This document shows, piece by piece, positions 35,550 through 44,269 of a DNA stretch of 64,000 nucleotides. Made by a program: the position numbers and the translations under genes. The notes beneath the pieces were generated by a model. That model was given only the letters and a program-made list of their open reading frames with translations, was not told the DNA's origin and did no database searches. This DNA is from Bacteroidota bacterium (GTDB lineage: Bacteria; Bacteroidota; Bacteroidia; Bacteroidales; PUMT01): assembly GCA_003554865.1 (NCBI GenBank), contig PWHJ01000001.1, positions 78,046 through 142,045 on the forward strand. The letters run 5' to 3'. Numbering within the stretch: position 1 is the stretch's first letter; every line of letters begins with the position of its first letter.

Positions 35550-36377
35550 TTATCTTCTTTGACTTTGAAAATGAAATGTTATTGTTCCCTCTTGTTGCGC
35601 CGGCGCATCGCTTTTTTCATCAAATCTGCTGCCAAGAGCAGCCTGCAGAGCCTCCTGCTGAAGACACCTTTCGTTGAAATCTGAAGGTTCCTGCTCAACC
35701 GATGCATCTGTAACATTGCCTTTGCGGTCGACCTTTATATCGACCGTTACGACACCTCCCTCAGGGCATTTGTAAACAGGGACGGGAATATAAAGGCTAG
35801 TTCTTTCCGAAAGGTCATAATATATGTTGGTGGGACCGGTGTAGGGCTCATCACTTTCTTCATCCCCACGGTAAAGCTCACCGAAATCCTTTTCCTCGAA
35901 ATCGACCTCAGGCTGCTCGGGTTCGGGTAAATTCCCGTCGGAGGCATTATTTAAAATGTCATCGACCCGGTTATCGAGTTCCTCCATTTCCCGGGAGCTG
36001 TAATCCCTGAATTGATCGGGCACCGGTCTGTCTGATTCCCTTGCTTCTGATTCACTTACAGCGATATTCCTTCTGGCCTCCTGCTGTGTTTGATCCCGTT
36101 GACCGTCGTCACCGAAAACTCTTTGTTCAAGGGTTTCGGTATCCGGACTTTCTGTTGCAACCTCTTCTTCAAAATCAATTAAAAATGCCTGGTGATGCTC
36201 GTTGTTTACAGTGGAGAGCCGGGAAAACATAAATGCGGCCACAATTAAAAGATGAAATGCAATTGTTCCAAGTATTCCATTTATCTCCCTGGCTGACAAA
36301 TTGCGTAAAAATGTTATCCCTTTGGAAAACCGAAGCCTTCCAATGGTAACTTTTACTATGTTTTCCTTTTTTCCCAT
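35550..36377 (-). CDS. TonB-like energy-transducer family protein
   Basis: A 275-residue protein. I place the start at the ATG at 36377 (MGKKENIVK), because the longer frame would begin inside a perfect promoter. One membrane segment lies at about residues 36-54 (ILGTIAFHLLIVAAFMF). An acidic Glu/Asp/Pro-rich periplasmic spacer follows (about 65-185), and then a TonB-like C-terminal domain with VTVDIKVDRKGNVTDASVE. TonB proteins pass proton-motive energy to outer-membrane receptors, but no exbB/exbD is adjacent. Another envelope-spanning role is possible. Confidence 0.75.
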   Translation of the reverse strand: MGKKENIVKVTIGRLRFSKGITFLRNLSAREINGILGTIAFHLLIVAAFMFSRLSTVNNEHHQAFLIDFEEEVATESPDTETLEQRVFGDDGQRDQTQQEARRNIAVSESEARESDRPVPDQFRDYSSREMEELDNRVDDILNNASDGNLPEPEQPEVDFEEKDFGELYRGDEESDEPYTGPTNIYYDLSERTSLYIPVPVYKCPEGGVVTVDIKVDRKGNVTDASVEQEPSDFNERCLQQEALQAALGSRFDEKSDAPAQQEGTITFHFQSQRR

Positions 36378-36384
36378 ATTACTG

Positions 36385-36416
36385 CAAATATACATCAATC
36401 ACCGCCTCAACCAAAA
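36385..36416 (-). promoter_or_regulatory. Promoter of TonB-like gene (near-leaderless)
   Basis: On the minus strand, TTTTG (36412-36416) and TATATTTG (36385-36392) are separated by 19 bases, a perfect consensus pair. The ATG at 36377 starts 7 bases after the box, so the transcript would have almost no leader. Confidence 0.75.
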
Positions 36417-36465
36417 CGTTTCCTGAATGTTAATATTTTTTACCCCATATATATAAAAACAATTA

Positions 36466-36497
36466 TTGTTTTTTATTGTCAAAAATTACTATATTTG
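36466..36497 (+). promoter_or_regulatory. Promoter of shikimate/tyrosine operon leader
   Basis: TTG at 36466-36468 and TATATTTG at 36490-36497, spacing 21. Transcription should begin near 36502-36505, about 33 bases before the leader ATG and about 260 bases before tyrA. Confidence 0.75.
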
Positions 36498-36535
36498 CAA
36501 ACGGTAAAAACAGAAAAATTACACCCGGTTAAAAA

Positions 36536-36658
36536 ATGACGGAAAACAAAGCAAATAAGAAATTTTTAAATTTTTCGCCCTACTGCGTCAGTGGCTTTTC
36601 TTTCCGTTATTATTTTTATTATATCTCAGATATAACAGCCGGGATTTTATGCCATTGA
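36536..36658 (+). CDS. Phe/Tyr-rich attenuator leader peptide
   Basis: A 40-codon ORF with ATG at 36536 and TGA at 36656-36658. Ten of 40 residues are Phe or Tyr and none is Trp. Residues 21-29 read F-S-F-R-Y-Y-F-Y-Y (36596-36622), a control-codon run like that of classic phe and tyr attenuators. The stop codon lies just after the antiterminator segment, so a ribosome finishing the ORF masks it. It is too short for a catalytic role, and the peptide is not expected to act as a protein. Confidence 0.75.
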   Translation: MTENKANKKFLNFSPYCVSGFSFRYYFYYISDITAGILCH

Positions 36659-36703
36659 ACGAAAAATAAAGTTTTAATATATAGCTGACAAAAAAAATCC
36701 CGG
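36639..36703 (+). promoter_or_regulatory. Antiterminator of aromatic operon attenuator
   Basis: CCGGGATTTT (36639-36648) is perfectly complementary over 10 bases to AAAATCCCGG (36694-36703), the 5' arm of the terminator. The first segment repeats the terminator's 3' arm, so the two hairpins are mutually exclusive. It begins 16 bases after the last Tyr control codon, outside the footprint of a ribosome stalled there, but inside the footprint of one at the stop codon. Confidence 0.75.
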
Positions 36704-36724
36704 AGCAATCCGGGATTTTTTTTT
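36690..36724 (+). terminator. Attenuator terminator upstream of tyrA
   Basis: AAATCCCGGA (36695-36704), loop GCAA, TCCGGGATTT (36709-36718), followed by a T run to 36724. It is a strong rho-independent hairpin located between a promoter-proximal leader ORF and the operon it precedes, which is why I read it as conditional. Confidence 0.9.
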
Positions 36725-36762: not shown

Positions 36763-37611
36763 ATGATGAGAATTGCCATAGCCGGTACAGGATTAATAGG
36801 GGGATCACTTGCAACGGATTTGAAAAAGAGGGGGTTTGCCTCCACTGTAACAGGTATTGAAACTAACCCTGAACATGCGCGAGTTTCAAAGGCTAAAGGT
36901 TTGGTCGACCGGGTCGGGGAGATGGAGAGTGCCATTGATTCTTCTGATCTTATAATACTTGCGACTCCGACAGATACCATTAAAAGTGTCTTGCCCCGGG
37001 TACTTGACAGGGTTGCCGGAACTGACAAGGTGGTTACCGATGTGGGGTCTGCCAAGGCGGGTATAGCAGAGGTTGTAAAAGATCATCCGGCAAGGAAGCA
37101 ATATGTGGCCGCCCATCCTATGGCGGGGACCGAATATTCGGGACCCGGTGCTGCAAAATCTTCCCTGTTCGACAATAAAACTGCAATAATTTGTGATGCC
37201 CGCCTCAGTGATCCGGATGCTCTTGAGGCAATAAAAAAAATGTTCAATGTATTGAATATGAACACAATATTCATGGACTCGGGAGAACATGATATAAGTG
37301 CGGCATATGTTTCCCATTTTTCCCACATAATCTCATTTGCCTTGTCACTTAGTGTTCAGGAAAAAGAAAAGAATTATAAAAAAATTCTGGCCATGGCGGG
37401 AGGCGGTTTCGATTCAACCGTGAGACTGGCAAAAAGCTCCCCCGGCACATGGACGCCCGTTTTGCTGGAAAACGCACCGTACATTAATGAGGTTATTGAT
37501 AACTACATTGAAAAACTTTACCAGTTCAGGAAGGCAATCCAAAACAGTGACCGCCAAAAAATTGACAATCTGATAATTGAGGCAAACAAAATAGAAAACA
37601 TTTTAATGTAA
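36763..37611 (+). CDS. tyrA: Prephenate dehydrogenase
   Basis: A 282-residue TyrA converting prephenate to 4-hydroxyphenylpyruvate with NAD(P). I place the start at the ATG at 36763; a TTG two codons earlier is less likely. The Rossmann motif IAGTGLIGGSLATDL is at the N-terminus. VAAHPMAGTEYSGPGAA includes the catalytic His region, and SHFSHIISFALS the second conserved helix. There is no ACT domain, so feedback control would have to be transcriptional (attenuator) or external. First gene of the operon, 39 bases after the terminator. Confidence 0.94.
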   Translation: MMRIAIAGTGLIGGSLATDLKKRGFASTVTGIETNPEHARVSKAKGLVDRVGEMESAIDSSDLIILATPTDTIKSVLPRVLDRVAGTDKVVTDVGSAKAGIAEVVKDHPARKQYVAAHPMAGTEYSGPGAAKSSLFDNKTAIICDARLSDPDALEAIKKMFNVLNMNTIFMDSGEHDISAAYVSHFSHIISFALSLSVQEKEKNYKKILAMAGGGFDSTVRLAKSSPGTWTPVLLENAPYINEVIDNYIEKLYQFRKAIQNSDRQKIDNLIIEANKIENILM

Positions 37612-37646: not shown

Positions 37647-38756
37647 ATGGAAGCTAAAGTGAAACCTTTATCAAATATGGAAAAACCGGTCATTAAGACA
37701 ATAAGTGACTGGAGTGTATGCAGGCAGAAGCCTCTTGTCATTTCCGGTCCCTGCAGCGCCGAAACAGAGGAGCAGGTTATGGAGACTGCAAAACAGCTGT
37801 CGGCCGGCGGGAAATGCGATGTATTCCGGGCCGGAGTATGGAAACCCCGAACAAAGCCAGGAGGATTTGAGGGTATCGGCTGTTCCTCCTTAAGGTGGCT
37901 TAAACGTGTAAGAAAGGAGTGCCAACTACCTGTTGCAGTTGAGGTAGCCAGGGAAAAGCATGTTTATGAGGCACTTAAGCACGGCATTGATATTCTTTGG
38001 ATAGGTGCACGTACCACCACAAATCCTTTTTCCATACAGGAAATAGCAGACACCCTTAAAGGTGTTGATGTTACAGTCCTGGTGAAAAACCCTGTAAATC
38101 CTGATGTTGATCTTTGGATGGGCGCCATTGAAAGAATAAACAAGGCGGGGGTCAACAGAATAGGTGCGGTACACCGCGGTTTTTTCTGCTGTGAGAACGA
38201 ACCTTACCGCAATACTCCCAAATGGCAGATCCCGATGGAGCTTCGCAGGAGAATGCCTCAATTGCCCATGATTTGTGACCCAAGTCACATGTCAGGCAAA
38301 CCGGGTTATTTGCAGGAAATTGCTCAAAAGGCTATGGACCTTGGTTTTGAAGGCCTGATGATAGAATCCCATATTCAGCCTGAAAATGCATGGAGCGACT
38401 CCGGACAACAAATTAAGCCTGCAGAGCTGGTATCCCTTCTGGAAAGCCTGGCGTCAGAGCCTGAAAATGAAAAAGTTGATTTTTCCTCCCGGCTTTTGAA
38501 TGAATTAAGAGAACAGATCGATATATTTGACGATCAGATCATGGATATGCTTGAGAGGCGTTTCAGGGTTGCAGAAAAAATAGGCGCTGAAAAAAGGAAA
38601 AAAGATATACCCTTTCTTCAGTCGGCACGCCGTAGTGAAATTATCGGCAAAGCTGTAAAAAAGGGGGAAGGCAGGGGACTTGACAGGGATTTCGTAAAGC
38701 AATTATTCAGCCTGATCCACAGTGAATCTCTCAACCGCCAGATGAAAACAAAATAA
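37647..38756 (+). CDS. Bifunctional DAHP synthase / chorismate mutase
   Basis: A 369-residue fusion. The N-terminal ~265 residues are a type I-beta (KDPG-like) DAHP synthase: PLVISGPCSAETEEQV, FRAGVWKPRTKPGGFEGIG, and CDPSHMSGKPGYLQEIA for metal and substrate. Residues ~275-365 are an AroQ-type chorismate mutase (LRNQ-like LRE QIDIFDDQIMDMLERR and later LHSESLNRQ-like segments). It thus catalyses the first shikimate step and the branch step to prephenate. Fusion to the mutase often gives allosteric control by prephenate in relatives. Gap to tyrA 35 bases, to aroB 14. Confidence 0.94.
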   Translation: MEAKVKPLSNMEKPVIKTISDWSVCRQKPLVISGPCSAETEEQVMETAKQLSAGGKCDVFRAGVWKPRTKPGGFEGIGCSSLRWLKRVRKECQLPVAVEVAREKHVYEALKHGIDILWIGARTTTNPFSIQEIADTLKGVDVTVLVKNPVNPDVDLWMGAIERINKAGVNRIGAVHRGFFCCENEPYRNTPKWQIPMELRRRMPQLPMICDPSHMSGKPGYLQEIAQKAMDLGFEGLMIESHIQPENAWSDSGQQIKPAELVSLLESLASEPENEKVDFSSRLLNELREQIDIFDDQIMDMLERRFRVAEKIGAEKRKKDIPFLQSARRSEIIGKAVKKGEGRGLDRDFVKQLFSLIHSESLNRQMKTK

Positions 38757-38770
38757 AACAGATCAAATAA

Positions 38771-39844
38771 ATGCATGAACTTACCATCAGCGGAAAAAGC
38801 GGCATATCAAGGATACTTATTGGGAGTCAGGCTGAAAGTATCGGCACACTTTTAAACAGCTCACAAGTGCTTGTGGTAGCTGACAAAAATGCCAGAAGGC
38901 TTCACCCGGGTTTTTTAAAAGGTTTCAGAATAATTGAGGCAGGTGGCGGAGAAGAGGTGAAAACTCTGGATACGGTAAGCAAAATATACAAGGAGCTGGT
39001 TAATATCGAAGCCGACAGGTCAACCTTCCTTTTGGGCTTTGGTGGCGGTGTTGCCTGCGACATTGCGGGTTTTGCCGCATCCACTTATATGCGCGGGATC
39101 TCTTTCGGACTTGTGCCCACGACCCTGCTTTCTCAGGCCGATGCAGGCATAGGTGGCAAGAACGGGGTAAATTTCATGGGGTATAAAAACCTTATCGGGC
39201 TCTTTTCTCAGCCACAATTTGTATTATGCGACCCCCTGTTTTTAAAGACACTCCCGGCCAGGGAGATCCTTTGCGGGGTGGGAGAGATTGTAAAACATGC
39301 TATTTTGTCGGGTGAGACATTGTTTGCATATTTAGAGGAAAATTATGATAAATTGCTAAAGCTTGAAAATGAAGTAGTCGCCAATGCTGTATGGCACTCT
39401 CTTTCGGTTAAGTCAGAAATAGTGAACAGGGATGAAACCGAGGAGGGCGAGCGCAGGAAACTCAATCTTGGTCATACCGCAGGTCATGCCATTGAAAAAA
39501 CAGACAACAGCATAACACACGGGGAAGCTGTTGCTGCCGGACTTGCAATTACCTCGGTTATTTCAGCCCAGCAGGGGTATTTGGATAAAAATTGCTGCAA
39601 AAGGATACTGAAAATACTTGATAAATTTTCTTTGCCATATTTGCCCTGCTGCTCAACTTCACAGATAAACAGAGCGATACGTCATGATAAAAAGCGTGAG
39701 GGGGAATATATTCATTTTGTTGTAATAAAGGAAATAGGCAATACCGGGGTAGTGAAAATAAGGCTTGAAACCCTCGAGAGATGGATCGAACAGGCAAACT
39801 CTTTTTTGAACAATAAAAGCACCCATGATTTGTGTCAGTATTAA
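38771..39844 (+). CDS. aroB: 3-dehydroquinate synthase
   Basis: A 357-residue AroB that cyclises DAHP to 3-dehydroquinate with NAD and a metal. FGGGVACDIAGFAASTYMRG (NAD), VPTTLLSQADAGIGGKNGVN and the metal-binding LNLGHTAGHAIE and ITHGEAVAAGL are intact. It starts 14 bases after the DAHP synthase gene and overlaps aroD by 20 bases in another frame, showing tight coupling. Confidence 0.96.
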   Translation: MHELTISGKSGISRILIGSQAESIGTLLNSSQVLVVADKNARRLHPGFLKGFRIIEAGGGEEVKTLDTVSKIYKELVNIEADRSTFLLGFGGGVACDIAGFAASTYMRGISFGLVPTTLLSQADAGIGGKNGVNFMGYKNLIGLFSQPQFVLCDPLFLKTLPAREILCGVGEIVKHAILSGETLFAYLEENYDKLLKLENEVVANAVWHSLSVKSEIVNRDETEEGERRKLNLGHTAGHAIEKTDNSITHGEAVAAGLAITSVISAQQGYLDKNCCKRILKILDKFSLPYLPCCSTSQINRAIRHDKKREGEYIHFVVIKEIGNTGVVKIRLETLERWIEQANSFLNNKSTHDLCQY

Positions 39845-40463
39845 AGAAAAATCACCCCAAAGGCTTGGCGAGCTGGTTAAAAACGCCGATATGGCAGAAA
39901 TAAGGCTGGACCTTATTAAACCGTCCCTTCCTTTGGTTCGCAGGATTTTCTCGGGCAGTCCGGTTGAGATGATTGCAACTTGCCGCCCCGGAGAGTATGA
40001 TGATAAAAGGCGTGCCGTGCTCCTGAAGCAGTCCGTTGATGCAGGTGCCGGGTGGATTGATATGGAAACCGACAGTGAGACATCTTTCCGCGAGGATGTT
40101 GCTTCTTATGCAACAAATAAAGGATGCGGGCTTATCATCTCATACCATAATTTTACTACAACTCCTACTGCTGAAGAGCTTGAGCAGATAACGGCAGAAT
40201 GCTTCAAAATGGGAGCCGGTGTGGCAAAAATAGCATGTATGGCCTTCAGTGGAAGTGATGTTGCAAAAATTTTATCACTTTATTCAAAATTTGAAAACCT
40301 GGTAGCCATATCAATGGGAGAGGCGGGTAAAATTTCGCGTGTGGCCGCACTGAAGCTGGGCGCCCCGTTTACTTTTGCCTCCGCCGGCGCTGATGCTTCA
40401 ACGGCTCCCGGACAAATGACGGAAGGTCAAATCAGAAAAATGATGGAGATATTGCATATATGA
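39825..40463 (+). CDS. aroD: 3-dehydroquinate dehydratase, type I
   Basis: A 212-residue type I enzyme that uses a Schiff-base lysine. The Lys is K135 in GVAKIACMA and the general-base His is H108 in IISYHNF; EIRLDLI (about 25-31) is the conserved substrate-binding strand. It is slightly shorter than the ~250-residue enteric enzyme. It overlaps aroB (20 bases) and the aroE-aroK fusion (ATGA, 4 bases). Confidence 0.94.
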   Translation: MICVSIKEKSPQRLGELVKNADMAEIRLDLIKPSLPLVRRIFSGSPVEMIATCRPGEYDDKRRAVLLKQSVDAGAGWIDMETDSETSFREDVASYATNKGCGLIISYHNFTTTPTAEELEQITAECFKMGAGVAKIACMAFSGSDVAKILSLYSKFENLVAISMGEAGKISRVAALKLGAPFTFASAGADASTAPGQMTEGQIRKMMEILHI

Positions 40464-41770
40464 TGAACCAGACAAAATTATTTGCCGTAACCGGCAATCC
40501 GGTGCTCCACAGTAAAAGTCCGCCAATGTTCAACAGGCAGTTTACCCTGAAGGAGAAAGACGCAGCCTATTTTCGCATGGCCGCCTCTTCGGCTGATGAG
40601 GCAGTAAGGCTTTTCAGGCTGAGCGGACTGAGTGGTATGAATGTAACCGCACCGTTCAAAAAAGAGATAATGGGATTGCTCGATTGGACAGATCCGGAGG
40701 CAAATAAAATCGGAGCCGTAAATACAATTACCGAAAAAGGGGGGAGGCTTCTTGGTTACAACACCGACCATATTGGAGTTACCGGTGCTTTGTCTGAGAG
40801 CGGTTTTAATCCCGAAGGCAAAAGATGCACGGTTGTCGGGGCCGGAGGTGCCGGAAGGGCTGCTGTATACGGACTTGTAAACTCCGGCGCCAGGGTAACG
40901 GTAATTGACATTGATGAAAAAACTGCAGCCAAAACGGCCGGTGAGCTTGACTGCAGCTTTGCAGTTTACTCCTCTCTGCGCAGTTATGCGGAAAATTCAG
41001 ATCTTCTGGTATATGCCACAGATACTTCTCACAAGGCAGTTGATCCTGACTGGTTAAAAGAAGGGCAGGTAATATTTGATGTCAATTACAAGGGATCACT
41101 TTTTGAAGATGTTGCAAGGGAAAAGGGCTGCAGGTTGGTTGGCGGACTACAAATGCTTTTAAATCAGGCAATACCGGCATACAAATATTTTTTGAATGAT
41201 CATCCCGATATTGAAAGTATGCGTGAGGCTCTTGAGGAGGAGAGGGAAACGAAAAAGAATGTAATTGCACTTACCGGATTTATGGGAACGGGAAAATCTG
41301 CCACCGGCAAGAAACTTGCCGAAATGCTCGGGTACGATCATGTTGAAACCGATCTTATGATAGAAAAAAAGGCGGGATGCTCAATTTCTGAAATTTTCAG
41401 CAGCAGGGGTGAGGATTGGTTCAGAAATACTGAGGAGGAAGTTATCCGCGAGGCGATATCCGGGTATAACCTTGTAGTCTCCTGCGGCGGAGGTGCAATA
41501 CTTTCACCGTCAAACCGCAGTGAATTGAAAAAGGCTGTTACAGTCTGGCTTTACTGCAGCACCCGCACCGGTACAGAAAGGGCAAATGACGGCACGCGCC
41601 CCCTGCTGAATGTAGAAAATCCCCTGGAGCAGGCCGGGCAACTTATGCTAAAGAGAAAAGGGTTTTACGCCCGCTCATGCGATCTGATGGTAAGCACAGA
41701 AGACAGGGCGGTCGGGTCCGTGGCTAAAATAATTGAAAAAGAGAGGAACAGCCTCTCTCAGGGTCAGTAA
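40460..41770 (+). CDS. Fused shikimate dehydrogenase - shikimate kinase
   Basis: A 436-residue fusion of AroE and AroK. The first ~260 residues are shikimate dehydrogenase: NPVLHSKSPPMFN, NVTAPFKKEIM (catalytic Lys), GAVNTI, the NADP motif VVGAGGAGRAAVY and GLQMLLNQA. A short charged linker (EEERETKK) leads to shikimate kinase with Walker A GFMGTGKS (residues 273-280), ETDLMIEK, the SCGGGA loop and a lid Arg. One chain would therefore carry dehydroshikimate through to shikimate 3-phosphate. The frame is continuous and I see no frameshift. It overlaps aroD by 4 bases. Confidence 0.94.
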   Translation: MMNQTKLFAVTGNPVLHSKSPPMFNRQFTLKEKDAAYFRMAASSADEAVRLFRLSGLSGMNVTAPFKKEIMGLLDWTDPEANKIGAVNTITEKGGRLLGYNTDHIGVTGALSESGFNPEGKRCTVVGAGGAGRAAVYGLVNSGARVTVIDIDEKTAAKTAGELDCSFAVYSSLRSYAENSDLLVYATDTSHKAVDPDWLKEGQVIFDVNYKGSLFEDVAREKGCRLVGGLQMLLNQAIPAYKYFLNDHPDIESMREALEEERETKKNVIALTGFMGTGKSATGKKLAEMLGYDHVETDLMIEKKAGCSISEIFSSRGEDWFRNTEEEVIREAISGYNLVVSCGGGAILSPSNRSELKKAVTVWLYCSTRTGTERANDGTRPLLNVENPLEQAGQLMLKRKGFYARSCDLMVSTEDRAVGSVAKIIEKERNSLSQGQ

Positions 41771-41864: not shown

Positions 41865-43148
41865 ATGCAGGAAGAATTGACAGGACCTTTGGAGGTGAGA
41901 GGGCACGTTGAGGCGCCCCCATCCAAGAGTATGATGCAGAGAGCTATTGCCGCAGGCTTGCTTGCGCGGGGGACCACTGTTATAACCAAACCCACATTCT
42001 GTAGTGATGCCCTTGCTGCAATTGATATGGCACGTATACTTGGAGCAGGCATCACTTGCGGTAAAGAAGAGGTTGTTATCAGCGGGGGGTTCAATCCGGC
42101 AGGCAATTTACTTGATTGCGGAGAATCGGGGCTTTCTGTAAGAATGTTTGCCCCCCTGGCTTCACTTCATAATTCATCCGTTACTCTTACAGGCAGGGGG
42201 TCGATACTTAAAAGGCCTGTTTTCATGATAAAAGAGGCCCTGGAACAGCTTGGAGCGGAATGTACAGACAATAACGGCTATTTACCCCTTATGGTAAAAG
42301 GTCCGCTTCAGGGGGGAGAGGCAGTGATCGACGGCTCAGCCAGCTCCCAGGCCTTGTCCGGACTCCTTATGGCCCTTCCTCTTGCCGGGAAAGCATCCCG
42401 TATAGAAGTTACCAATCTCAAAAGCAGGGCTTATGTAGATATGACAACAGATCTGTTAAATATTTTCAATATAGATATTGTTAACCGCAATTACGTCTCT
42501 TTTGAGATACCCGGCAACCAGAGATACAAGCCTGCGGCTTATACTGTGGAGGGAGACTGGAGCGGTGCGGCATTTTTGCTTGTGGCCGGCGCAATTGGGG
42601 GAAGTATAAGAGTAGGAAATATAGATACTCAAAGTCCGCAACCTGACAAGCAAATAGTTGAGGCTTTGAAAAAAGCAGGAGCTGTTGTGAAACCGGGCAC
42701 CAAAGAGGTATATGTTGAAAGGTGCAATCTCAGCTCCTTTGAATTTGACGCGACCGGTTGCCCCGACCTGTTTCCCCCGCTTGTTGTCCTTGCTGCCGCA
42801 TGCAAGGGCAAAACACGTATAAAGGGTGCCGAAAGGCTTAAATATAAGGAAAGCAGCCGGGGGGAGGTATTGAAAAATGAATTTTCCCGTCTGGGAGTTA
42901 ATATTGAATTGCACCGTGATGAGATGACAGTGGAAGGGGGAGCGATGAAAAGCGGAAAGATCAGCTCGCACAATGATCACAGGATAGCTATGGCTGCCGC
43001 TGTGGCTGCGATAGTTTGCGAAGGCAGTGTAACTGTTGAGGATGCCGGTTGCGTGAATAAATCCTATCCCGGTTTTTTCAGGGATTTTGAAAAAATAACA
43101 GGTCACCGGTCAGGGAAGCCTTTCTTTTCAGGCAAGAGCCTAACCTGA
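41865..43148 (+). CDS. aroA: 3-phosphoshikimate 1-carboxyvinyltransferase (EPSP synthase)
   Basis: A 427-residue EPSP synthase. The start MQEELTGPLEVRGHVEAPPSKSMMQRA contains the conserved PxSKSxxxR substrate site. DCGESGLSVRMFAPLA, the central SSQALSGLLMALPL and C-terminal HNDHRIAMAAAVA are present. In the glyphosate-contact loop the residues read DCGESGLSVRM rather than the enteric GNAGTAMRP, closer to class II enzymes. A 94-base gap separates it from the fusion gene, with no convincing promoter in it. Confidence 0.93.
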   Translation: MQEELTGPLEVRGHVEAPPSKSMMQRAIAAGLLARGTTVITKPTFCSDALAAIDMARILGAGITCGKEEVVISGGFNPAGNLLDCGESGLSVRMFAPLASLHNSSVTLTGRGSILKRPVFMIKEALEQLGAECTDNNGYLPLMVKGPLQGGEAVIDGSASSQALSGLLMALPLAGKASRIEVTNLKSRAYVDMTTDLLNIFNIDIVNRNYVSFEIPGNQRYKPAAYTVEGDWSGAAFLLVAGAIGGSIRVGNIDTQSPQPDKQIVEALKKAGAVVKPGTKEVYVERCNLSSFEFDATGCPDLFPPLVVLAAACKGKTRIKGAERLKYKESSRGEVLKNEFSRLGVNIELHRDEMTVEGGAMKSGKISSHNDHRIAMAAAVAAIVCEGSVTVEDAGCVNKSYPGFFRDFEKITGHRSGKPFFSGKSLT

Positions 43149-43264: not shown

Positions 43265-44269
43265 ATGAACACCTTCGGAAGATTGTTCAGGGTCAGTATT
43301 TTTGGGGAATCACATGGCCATTCAACCGGTGTTGTTTTAGACGGAGTTCCTGCCGGGATTTCCCTGGATGCGGCCGATTTTGAAAAAGATCTTGAACGCA
43401 GGCGTAGCGGCACAAAAGGTACAACGCCCAGAAAAGAACCCGACAGTCCCGTGCTGGCAAGCGGGGTTCTGAATGGCCTCACTACCGGGAGTCCGTTAAC
43501 GGTGATTTTTGAAAACCGGGATGTGCGTTCCGCAGGTTACGAAAAATTCAGGGATGTGCCCCGTCCGGGTCATGCCGATTTTACGGCAACAAAAAAATGG
43601 TCAGGCTACAACGACATCAGGGGTGCCGGCCATTTGTCGGGGCGGCTGACCAACGGGCTGGTCGCTGCAGGTGTGCTGGCAAAAAAGATAATTGCCCCTG
43701 TAAATGTTACCTCTTCATTGGTTGAAGCCGGCGGGGAGAATGATATTTCAAAAGCCGTTGATAAAGCATCTGATCTGAATGATTCTATAGGCGGAGTGGT
43801 TGAGTGCAGGGCCCGGAATTTGCCTGTTGGACTGGGAGAGCCGTTTTTCGACTCAGTTGAGTCTGTTATAAGCCACATAATTTTTTCAATTCCCGCAATC
43901 AGGGGGATTGAGTTTGGAGCAGGCTTTGCTTCAGCACGCATGAAGGGATCGGAGCATAATGACAGGATAATATCTGATGAAGGCAAAACAGAGACCAACA
44001 ATGCAGGGGGAGTAAACGGAGGTATCACAAATGGAAACGAGCTGTTTTTCAGGGTGGCAGCTAAGCCCACTTCATCAATTGCTTTAACACAGAGAACAAT
44101 AGATCTCAAGAAAGGGAGGGAGGTGGAGCTGAAATCTGAGGGGCGTCATGATCTTTGCATTGCTTTGAGGATACCGGTTATAACTGAAGCTGCCGCCGCC
44201 ATAGCGCTTGCCGATTTATTTCTGATTCACAGGGGCATACAAGGCAATATTTTGTCTGCCAAAGACTGA
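43265..44269 (+). CDS. aroC: Chorismate synthase
   Basis: A 334-residue AroC, the final step to chorismate, FMN-dependent. FGESHGHSTGVVLDGVPAGI, the FMN/substrate segments RPGHADFTATKKW, GAGHLSGRLTNGLVAAGV and the C-terminal RHDLCIALRIPVITEAAAA are all found. It is about 20-25 residues shorter than many homologues, without loss of a motif I recognise. A 116-base gap after aroA holds no clear promoter, so it is probably the last gene of the attenuated operon. Confidence 0.94.
   Translation: MNTFGRLFRVSIFGESHGHSTGVVLDGVPAGISLDAADFEKDLERRRSGTKGTTPRKEPDSPVLASGVLNGLTTGSPLTVIFENRDVRSAGYEKFRDVPRPGHADFTATKKWSGYNDIRGAGHLSGRLTNGLVAAGVLAKKIIAPVNVTSSLVEAGGENDISKAVDKASDLNDSIGGVVECRARNLPVGLGEPFFDSVESVISHIIFSIPAIRGIEFGAGFASARMKGSEHNDRIISDEGKTETNNAGGVNGGITNGNELFFRVAAKPTSSIALTQRTIDLKKGREVELKSEGRHDLCIALRIPVITEAAAAIALADLFLIHRGIQGNILSAKD

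Follow-up and report, generated by a model that had tools for sequence, protein, structure and literature searches.

The window, by which we mean the whole 64,000-nucleotide stretch of DNA that was analysed, contains a plus-strand gene cluster for the aromatic pathway that is preceded by a predicted promoter, a short ORF, and an intrinsic terminator. The features of the locus are listed below.

36465–36497, plus strand: predicted promoter of the Bacteroidetes type, from its match to the Bacteroidetes consensus
36524–36530, plus strand: putative protector segment 1 (CCCGGTT), forming a 7-bp helix with 36637–36643 in the full-leader MFE structure
36536–36658, plus strand: leader peptide ORF of 40 codons, from the sequence and an alignment with congeners
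36596–36622, plus strand: putative control codons F-S-F-R-Y-Y-F-Y-Y; an equivalent F/Y run occurs in the 69 compared attenuators, window included
36639–36648, plus strand: putative antiterminator strand (segment 2) CCGGGATTTT, which repeats the 3' arm of the terminator and pairs perfectly with 36694–36703
36690–36724, plus strand: intrinsic terminator with a 15-bp stem, a 4-nt loop, and a U tract, from folding and sequence
36763–37611, plus strand: tyrA, prephenate dehydrogenase (PDH_N and PDH_C, no ACT domain; Pfam)
37647–38756, plus strand: DAHP synthase fused to type II chorismate mutase (Pfam)
38771–39844, plus strand: aroB, 3-dehydroquinate synthase (Pfam)
39825–40463, plus strand: aroD, type I 3-dehydroquinase (Pfam)
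40460–41770, plus strand: aroE-aroK fusion, shikimate dehydrogenase and shikimate kinase (Pfam)
41865–43148, plus strand: aroA, EPSP synthase (Pfam)
43265–44269, plus strand: aroC, chorismate synthase (Pfam)

According to Pfam, these genes cover all seven steps to chorismate as well as chorismate mutase and prephenate dehydrogenase, which agrees with the preliminary description of a complete chorismate pathway with a chorismate mutase and a TyrA lacking an ACT domain. Their spacing and common strand suggest that tyrA and the aro genes form one transcript. No further terminator was found on the plus strand from the leader to the end of aroC in the scan for leader-terminator pairs, and a few sites on the plus strand turned up in a looser consensus scan; they were weak, and the total was close to the shuffle expectation. 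A gene for a membrane transport protein (PF03547, 44357–45310) follows closely after aroC on the same strand and may share the transcript. The gene upstream of the promoter (35550–36398) is divergent on the minus strand; therefore, the terminator belongs to the operon downstream, standing between its promoter and its first gene.

The Bacteroidetes promoter consensus consists of TTTG and a downstream TAnnTTTG, the latter being the -7 part. When the sequence was re-read, a -7 box, TATATTTG, was located at 36490–36497 and a TTG at 36466–36468, 21 nt upstream of the box. The promoter previously placed at 36466–36497 is thus retained as a predicted promoter of the Bacteroidetes type; it was absent from the list given by an E. 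coli-type promoter scan and is not a sigma-70 match. Transcription would start at about 36503–36505. The leader ORF is MTENKANKKFLNFSPYCVSGFSFRYYFYYISDITAGILCH, with the stop codon TGA at 36656–36658, and its length of 40 codons and the position of the aromatic run were exact on re-reading. The ORF start has A at -3 and no Shine-Dalgarno sequence, as expected for Bacteroidetes ribosomes (PMC6847099). A leader ORF with a run of end-product codons, as in an attenuator, therefore sits between the promoter and the first gene.

The putative antiterminator strand lies within this ORF, where it had been located before: 16 nt separate it from the last Tyr codon, and it occupies the region 8 to 17 nt ahead of the stop codon. 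It pairs perfectly over 10 bases with its complement AAAATCCCGG at 36694–36703 (-16.2 kcal/mol), and this pairing was stronger than that in 200 of 200 shuffled spacers (z = -6.1). The 10-base complementarity claimed in the preliminary description was thus retained, whereas the start of the terminator 5' arm, given there as 36695, was one base off. The terminator stem is formed by 36690–36704 and 36709–36723, the U tract ends at 36724, and the folding energy is about -18.7 kcal/mol. Since the 5' arm segment 36694–36703 is common to the terminator and the antiterminator helix, the two structures are mutually exclusive, and the terminator stands between the leader ORF and the first gene, both being features of an attenuator. 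The folding energy of the leader region had a z of -4.2 against dinucleotide shuffles. The earlier anatomy was otherwise right but had overlooked the 5' protector segment at 36524–36530, which is predicted to pair with the antiterminator region at 36637–36643 in a 7-bp helix (-12.7 kcal/mol). This segment is partly kept in one congener (L045), where CGGTT stands opposite AACCG.

Both congeners have the same layout before tyrA, with the leaders MENSHKISGIYTASFSFFYFYFYYFTDRTGVLCC and MQNFHKISGSITESLSFFYFYYYYYSDRTGVLCC. In their alignment with the window, the aromatic run, antiterminator, terminator, and stop codon are preserved and the flanks diverge. Members of the order and family carry leaders such as MKTRTGYASFYYFFYFWGK, MNNTFGYYAFYYYFFYNN, and MALAHTYFTSNFFFFYFSNKRGRTM upstream of pheA, an aminotransferase gene, or tyrA, each with a strong terminator downstream, and a leader with a Phe/Tyr run followed by a terminator was present upstream of pheA or tyrA operons in most of the relatives examined. 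An initial loose scan had yielded many spurious short ORFs and hairpins, and the later filters called for an ATG start and a genuine U tract and put bounds on stem energy and distance. The phylum scan looked upstream of pheA for a leader in which at least five of ten codons were F/Y codons and which had a terminator no more than 80 nt away. Of the 26 genomes from the same class, 19 had such an arrangement, as did 3 of the 64 outside it; these fractions are indicative, as the 90 loci comprised the 30 best-scoring pheA matches and 60 loci hand-chosen from different families. Shuffled upstream regions gave no leader-terminator match (0/270). The three loci outside the class (L166, L177, and L196) have clear Phe/Tyr leaders before pheA, in contrast to the other 61 sampled, which have none; either an older origin or transfer would explain them. 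The preliminary description had proposed looking among relatives for a conserved aromatic run with variable flanks and for co-varying hairpins, and the outcome was positive in the congeners, the order, and the class.

For each attenuator, the region from the last aromatic codon to the terminator was compared with the terminator's own 5' arm. Fifty-one of the 72 candidate attenuators surpassed their own shuffled spacers at p<0.05, and in about a quarter to a third of the relatives the predicted antiterminator was no better than the shuffles. Among the 72 candidates, the distance from the last aromatic codon to the start of the best antiterminator had a median of 10 nt, and the antiterminator's span, counted from the stop codon, was -15.5 to -3; a stalled ribosome is predicted to leave this position exposed directly in front of it, and a terminating ribosome to cover it. 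After removal of three evident false hits, 69 attenuators were used for the analysis of co-variation. Matched pairs of antiterminator and arm had a mean energy of -13.2 kcal/mol, against -9.2 kcal/mol for swapped pairs. The observed mean was reached in none of 5000 permutations (P = 0.0002), although this and the other P values are optimistic as to independence because the sampled attenuators are related by descent. The pairing partners vary by genus, for example GCGAGGCTT with GCCTCG, GGTGAGGC with GCCTCACC, and GAGAACTT with AGTTCTC. Because the antiterminator sequences differ between genera in this way, it is the pairing and not the sequence that is kept, and the variety among them speaks for numerous independent changes.

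Within the runs, 62% of the codons are Phe or Tyr codons, 36% of which end in C, and the Leu codons TTA and TTG are nearly absent. The use of both third bases and the near absence of these Leu codons indicate a coding signal rather than a U-rich tract. In a sister genus, the leader of the stand-alone pheA is essentially Phe-only, e.g. MTPVLNSNFFFFFFGNPKKGL, whereas the tyrA operon, located separately in the same genomes, has a run of both Phe and Tyr codons (loci L080, L085–L089, L091, and L092 versus L064–L071). More generally, tyrA operons without pheA had mixed to Tyr-rich runs, and the Tyr fraction differed between lone-pheA operons and tyrA operons without pheA (P = 4e-5). In four genomes without detected pheA (G054, G028, G094, and G002), Tyr codons were at least as numerous as Phe codons, from 4Y/4F to 6Y/0F; the assemblies are 79–99% complete, which makes the absence of pheA likely, not certain. 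These comparisons support the view that the identity of the control codons tracks the gene content of the operon. The pheA gene of the window's genome is located elsewhere, and no leader-terminator attenuator was seen at the pheA loci of this genome and of the congener that carries the gene (L083 and L081), in contrast to the sister genus.

The other amino-acid operons of the genome were examined one by one. A His-run leader, MYTLAAHTGHFHHHHHTGMK, was found before hisG, a Trp leader, MSNIFYIHTWCWHNEHTRFVPGLL, before trpE, and an Ile/Leu leader, MRPISVLHILIIIILWGISHGGEDGM, before ilvD, each with a terminator. The presence of His, Trp, and Ile/Leu leaders in one genome suggests that attenuation is a general tool of this organism. 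These three leaders (L120, L098, and L219) lie on contigs C222 and C11, and His and Trp leaders also occur in several relatives. No Thr attenuators were detected upstream of homoserine dehydrogenase genes in five relatives. The window's own operon has a single attenuator module. Seven relatives (L057, L058, L062, L072, L073, L094, and L208) carry, ahead of pheA, aminotransferase, or tyrA operons, two modules in tandem, each with a Phe/Tyr leader and a terminator; the two terminators are about 139–189 nt apart and the second leader starts 11–61 nt after the first terminator, where measured. At L096, trpE is preceded by two Trp leaders arranged in a similar way.

The strength of the terminator by itself might be taken to indicate a constitutive premature or bidirectional terminator next to an incidental short ORF, with no sensing of amino acids, and the AT-rich region does raise the frequency of F/Y codons. 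We consider this explanation very improbable, as the divergent gene upstream needs no plus-strand terminator here, and neither the conserved F/Y runs, which shuffled regions failed to reproduce, nor the co-variation of antiterminator and terminator would be expected of it; the match between the codons and the regulated gene and the parallel His, Trp, and Ile leaders in the genome likewise argue against it. The structured leader with its strong folding z-score would also suit a direct RNA sensor, i.e. a T-box, a riboswitch, or a protein-bound leader, which governs the terminator and to which the ORF is secondary, and T-boxes regulate such genes in Firmicutes. In the window, however, Rfam at the gathering threshold yielded only a tRNA and neither a T-box nor any other cis-regulatory RNA; a relaxed search gave only sub-threshold, mostly terminator-like matches (such as Thr_leader and Phe_leader) and again no T-box. 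In addition, only about 100 nt precede the run, the flanks are unconserved between genera, and it is the codons that are conserved and not a fold, which makes a direct sensor even less probable than a constitutive terminator.

An equally slight probability is given to the ORF encoding a functional small protein, or being translationally coupled to tyrA in place of termination. An ORF of this kind does occur in all three congeners; however, its conservation is limited to the aromatic run and the antiterminator codons, with length and flanks varying freely, and its stop codon lies about 100 nt before tyrA with the terminator in between and the tyrA start outside the hairpin. The element very probably controls the tyrA-shikimate operon as a ribosome-mediated (leader-peptide) transcription attenuator, sensing the supply of charged tRNA-Phe and tRNA-Tyr. 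The same mechanism had been put forward in the preliminary description, and it is now supported by conservation, co-variation, and the matching of codons to operons.

From this arrangement, we infer promoter use, ribosome stalling, read-through, and termination as follows. Transcription would start near 36504 and translation of the leader ORF at 36536. When Phe-tRNA or Tyr-tRNA is scarce, the ribosome would stall on codons 21–29, with its front edge at or before about 36634, leaving 36639–36648 free to pair with 36694–36703 before the 3' arm of the terminator is made; with the antiterminator formed, RNA polymerase would continue into tyrA and the aro genes. With both charged tRNAs in ample supply, the ribosome would reach the stop codon at 36656 and cover 36639–36648, the terminator would form, and transcription ending near 36724 would yield a leader RNA about 220 nt long. 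Without translation of the leader, 36524–36530 could mask the antiterminator, resulting in basal termination. In folding with the ribosome footprint removed, the antiterminator (-13.4 kcal/mol) was obtained for every stall from Y25 to I30 with transcription at 36706, whereas a ribosome at codon 36 or at the stop codon left only the terminator possible. With this spacing, the antiterminator is predicted to be free when the ribosome is at the control codons and covered when it is at the stop codon. In MFE folding of the finished leader, the terminator was always preferred, indicating that the choice must be kinetic and made during transcription. The same is true of the trp and pheA attenuators.

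This mechanism needs a leading ribosome close behind RNA polymerase; hence, its class-wide conservation is indirect evidence of transcription-translation coupling in Bacteroidia, for which a keyword search of the literature found no direct evidence. If Bacteroidia generally control amino-acid operons in this way, tight coupling would operate in a class whose ribosomes work without Shine-Dalgarno pairing. The element offers a precise, testable regulator of the entire aromatic pathway in a class that is prominent in the gut and in the environment and in which the regulation of amino-acid synthesis has been little described, and leaders of this type would reveal which amino acid an uncharacterised operon responds to. 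For the tandem versions, one may ask what a second, similar sensor contributes. It seems moderately probable that Bacteroidia generally control amino-acid operons (aromatic, His, Trp, and branched-chain) by ribosome-mediated attenuation, that the control codons are adjusted to the genes present, and that two attenuators with the same signal often follow one another.

A comparative paper by Lopatovskaya, Seliverstov and Lyubetsky from 2010 is said to list, possibly, candidates from Bacteroidetes/Chlorobi. Naville and Gautheret (2010) knew leader-peptide systems only from Proteobacteria and Actinobacteria and added Firmicutes (PMC2965389), and a map of B. thetaiotaomicron mentions leader-like short ORFs (PMC7366714). 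A 2021 transcriptome study of Flavobacterium psychrophilum reported strong indications that amino-acid operons are preceded by leader-peptide attenuators (PMC9723704). The preliminary description knew of no described attenuator on this Bacteroidota operon; in view of that suggestion and of the His, Trp, and Ile/Leu siblings, the element is neither unique to the operon nor new in kind. As far as we found in the open-access literature, this classical mechanism has been noted before in this lineage but not analysed. The class-wide distribution, the fit of codons to gene content, and the tandem Phe/Tyr attenuators of seven relatives are apparently new.

In the E. coli trp attenuator, a stalled ribosome frees segment 2 and a ribosome at the stop codon masks it. 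The window element has segments 1, 2, 3, and 4 in the same order, but it differs in its amino acids and genes and in the leader start, which has A at -3 without a Shine-Dalgarno sequence (PMC6847099). It resembles the enterobacterial pheA attenuator (RF01859, Phe_leader) in the short Phe-rich leader ORF, the overlapping antiterminator and terminator, the aromatic gene target, and the protector; it differs in its mixed Phe and Tyr codons and in its target, tyrA with the whole common pathway, and it scored 24.1 bits against the Rfam gathering score of 55 for that family. The Flavobacterium psychrophilum case shares the phylum and the proposed mechanism, and its 5' structured regions are supported by RNA-seq; it belongs to another family than this organism, and the passages available contain no codon-level, covariation, or phylogenetic analysis (PMC9723704). 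A literature search for tandem leader-peptide attenuators found mgtCBR and no case in amino-acid biosynthesis. The tandem attenuators of Salmonella mgtCBR have two regulatory short ORFs in series, as in the seven relatives, but form a different system with different signals, whereas the two modules of the relatives share the same kind of Phe/Tyr run and each have their own terminator (PMC3641672).
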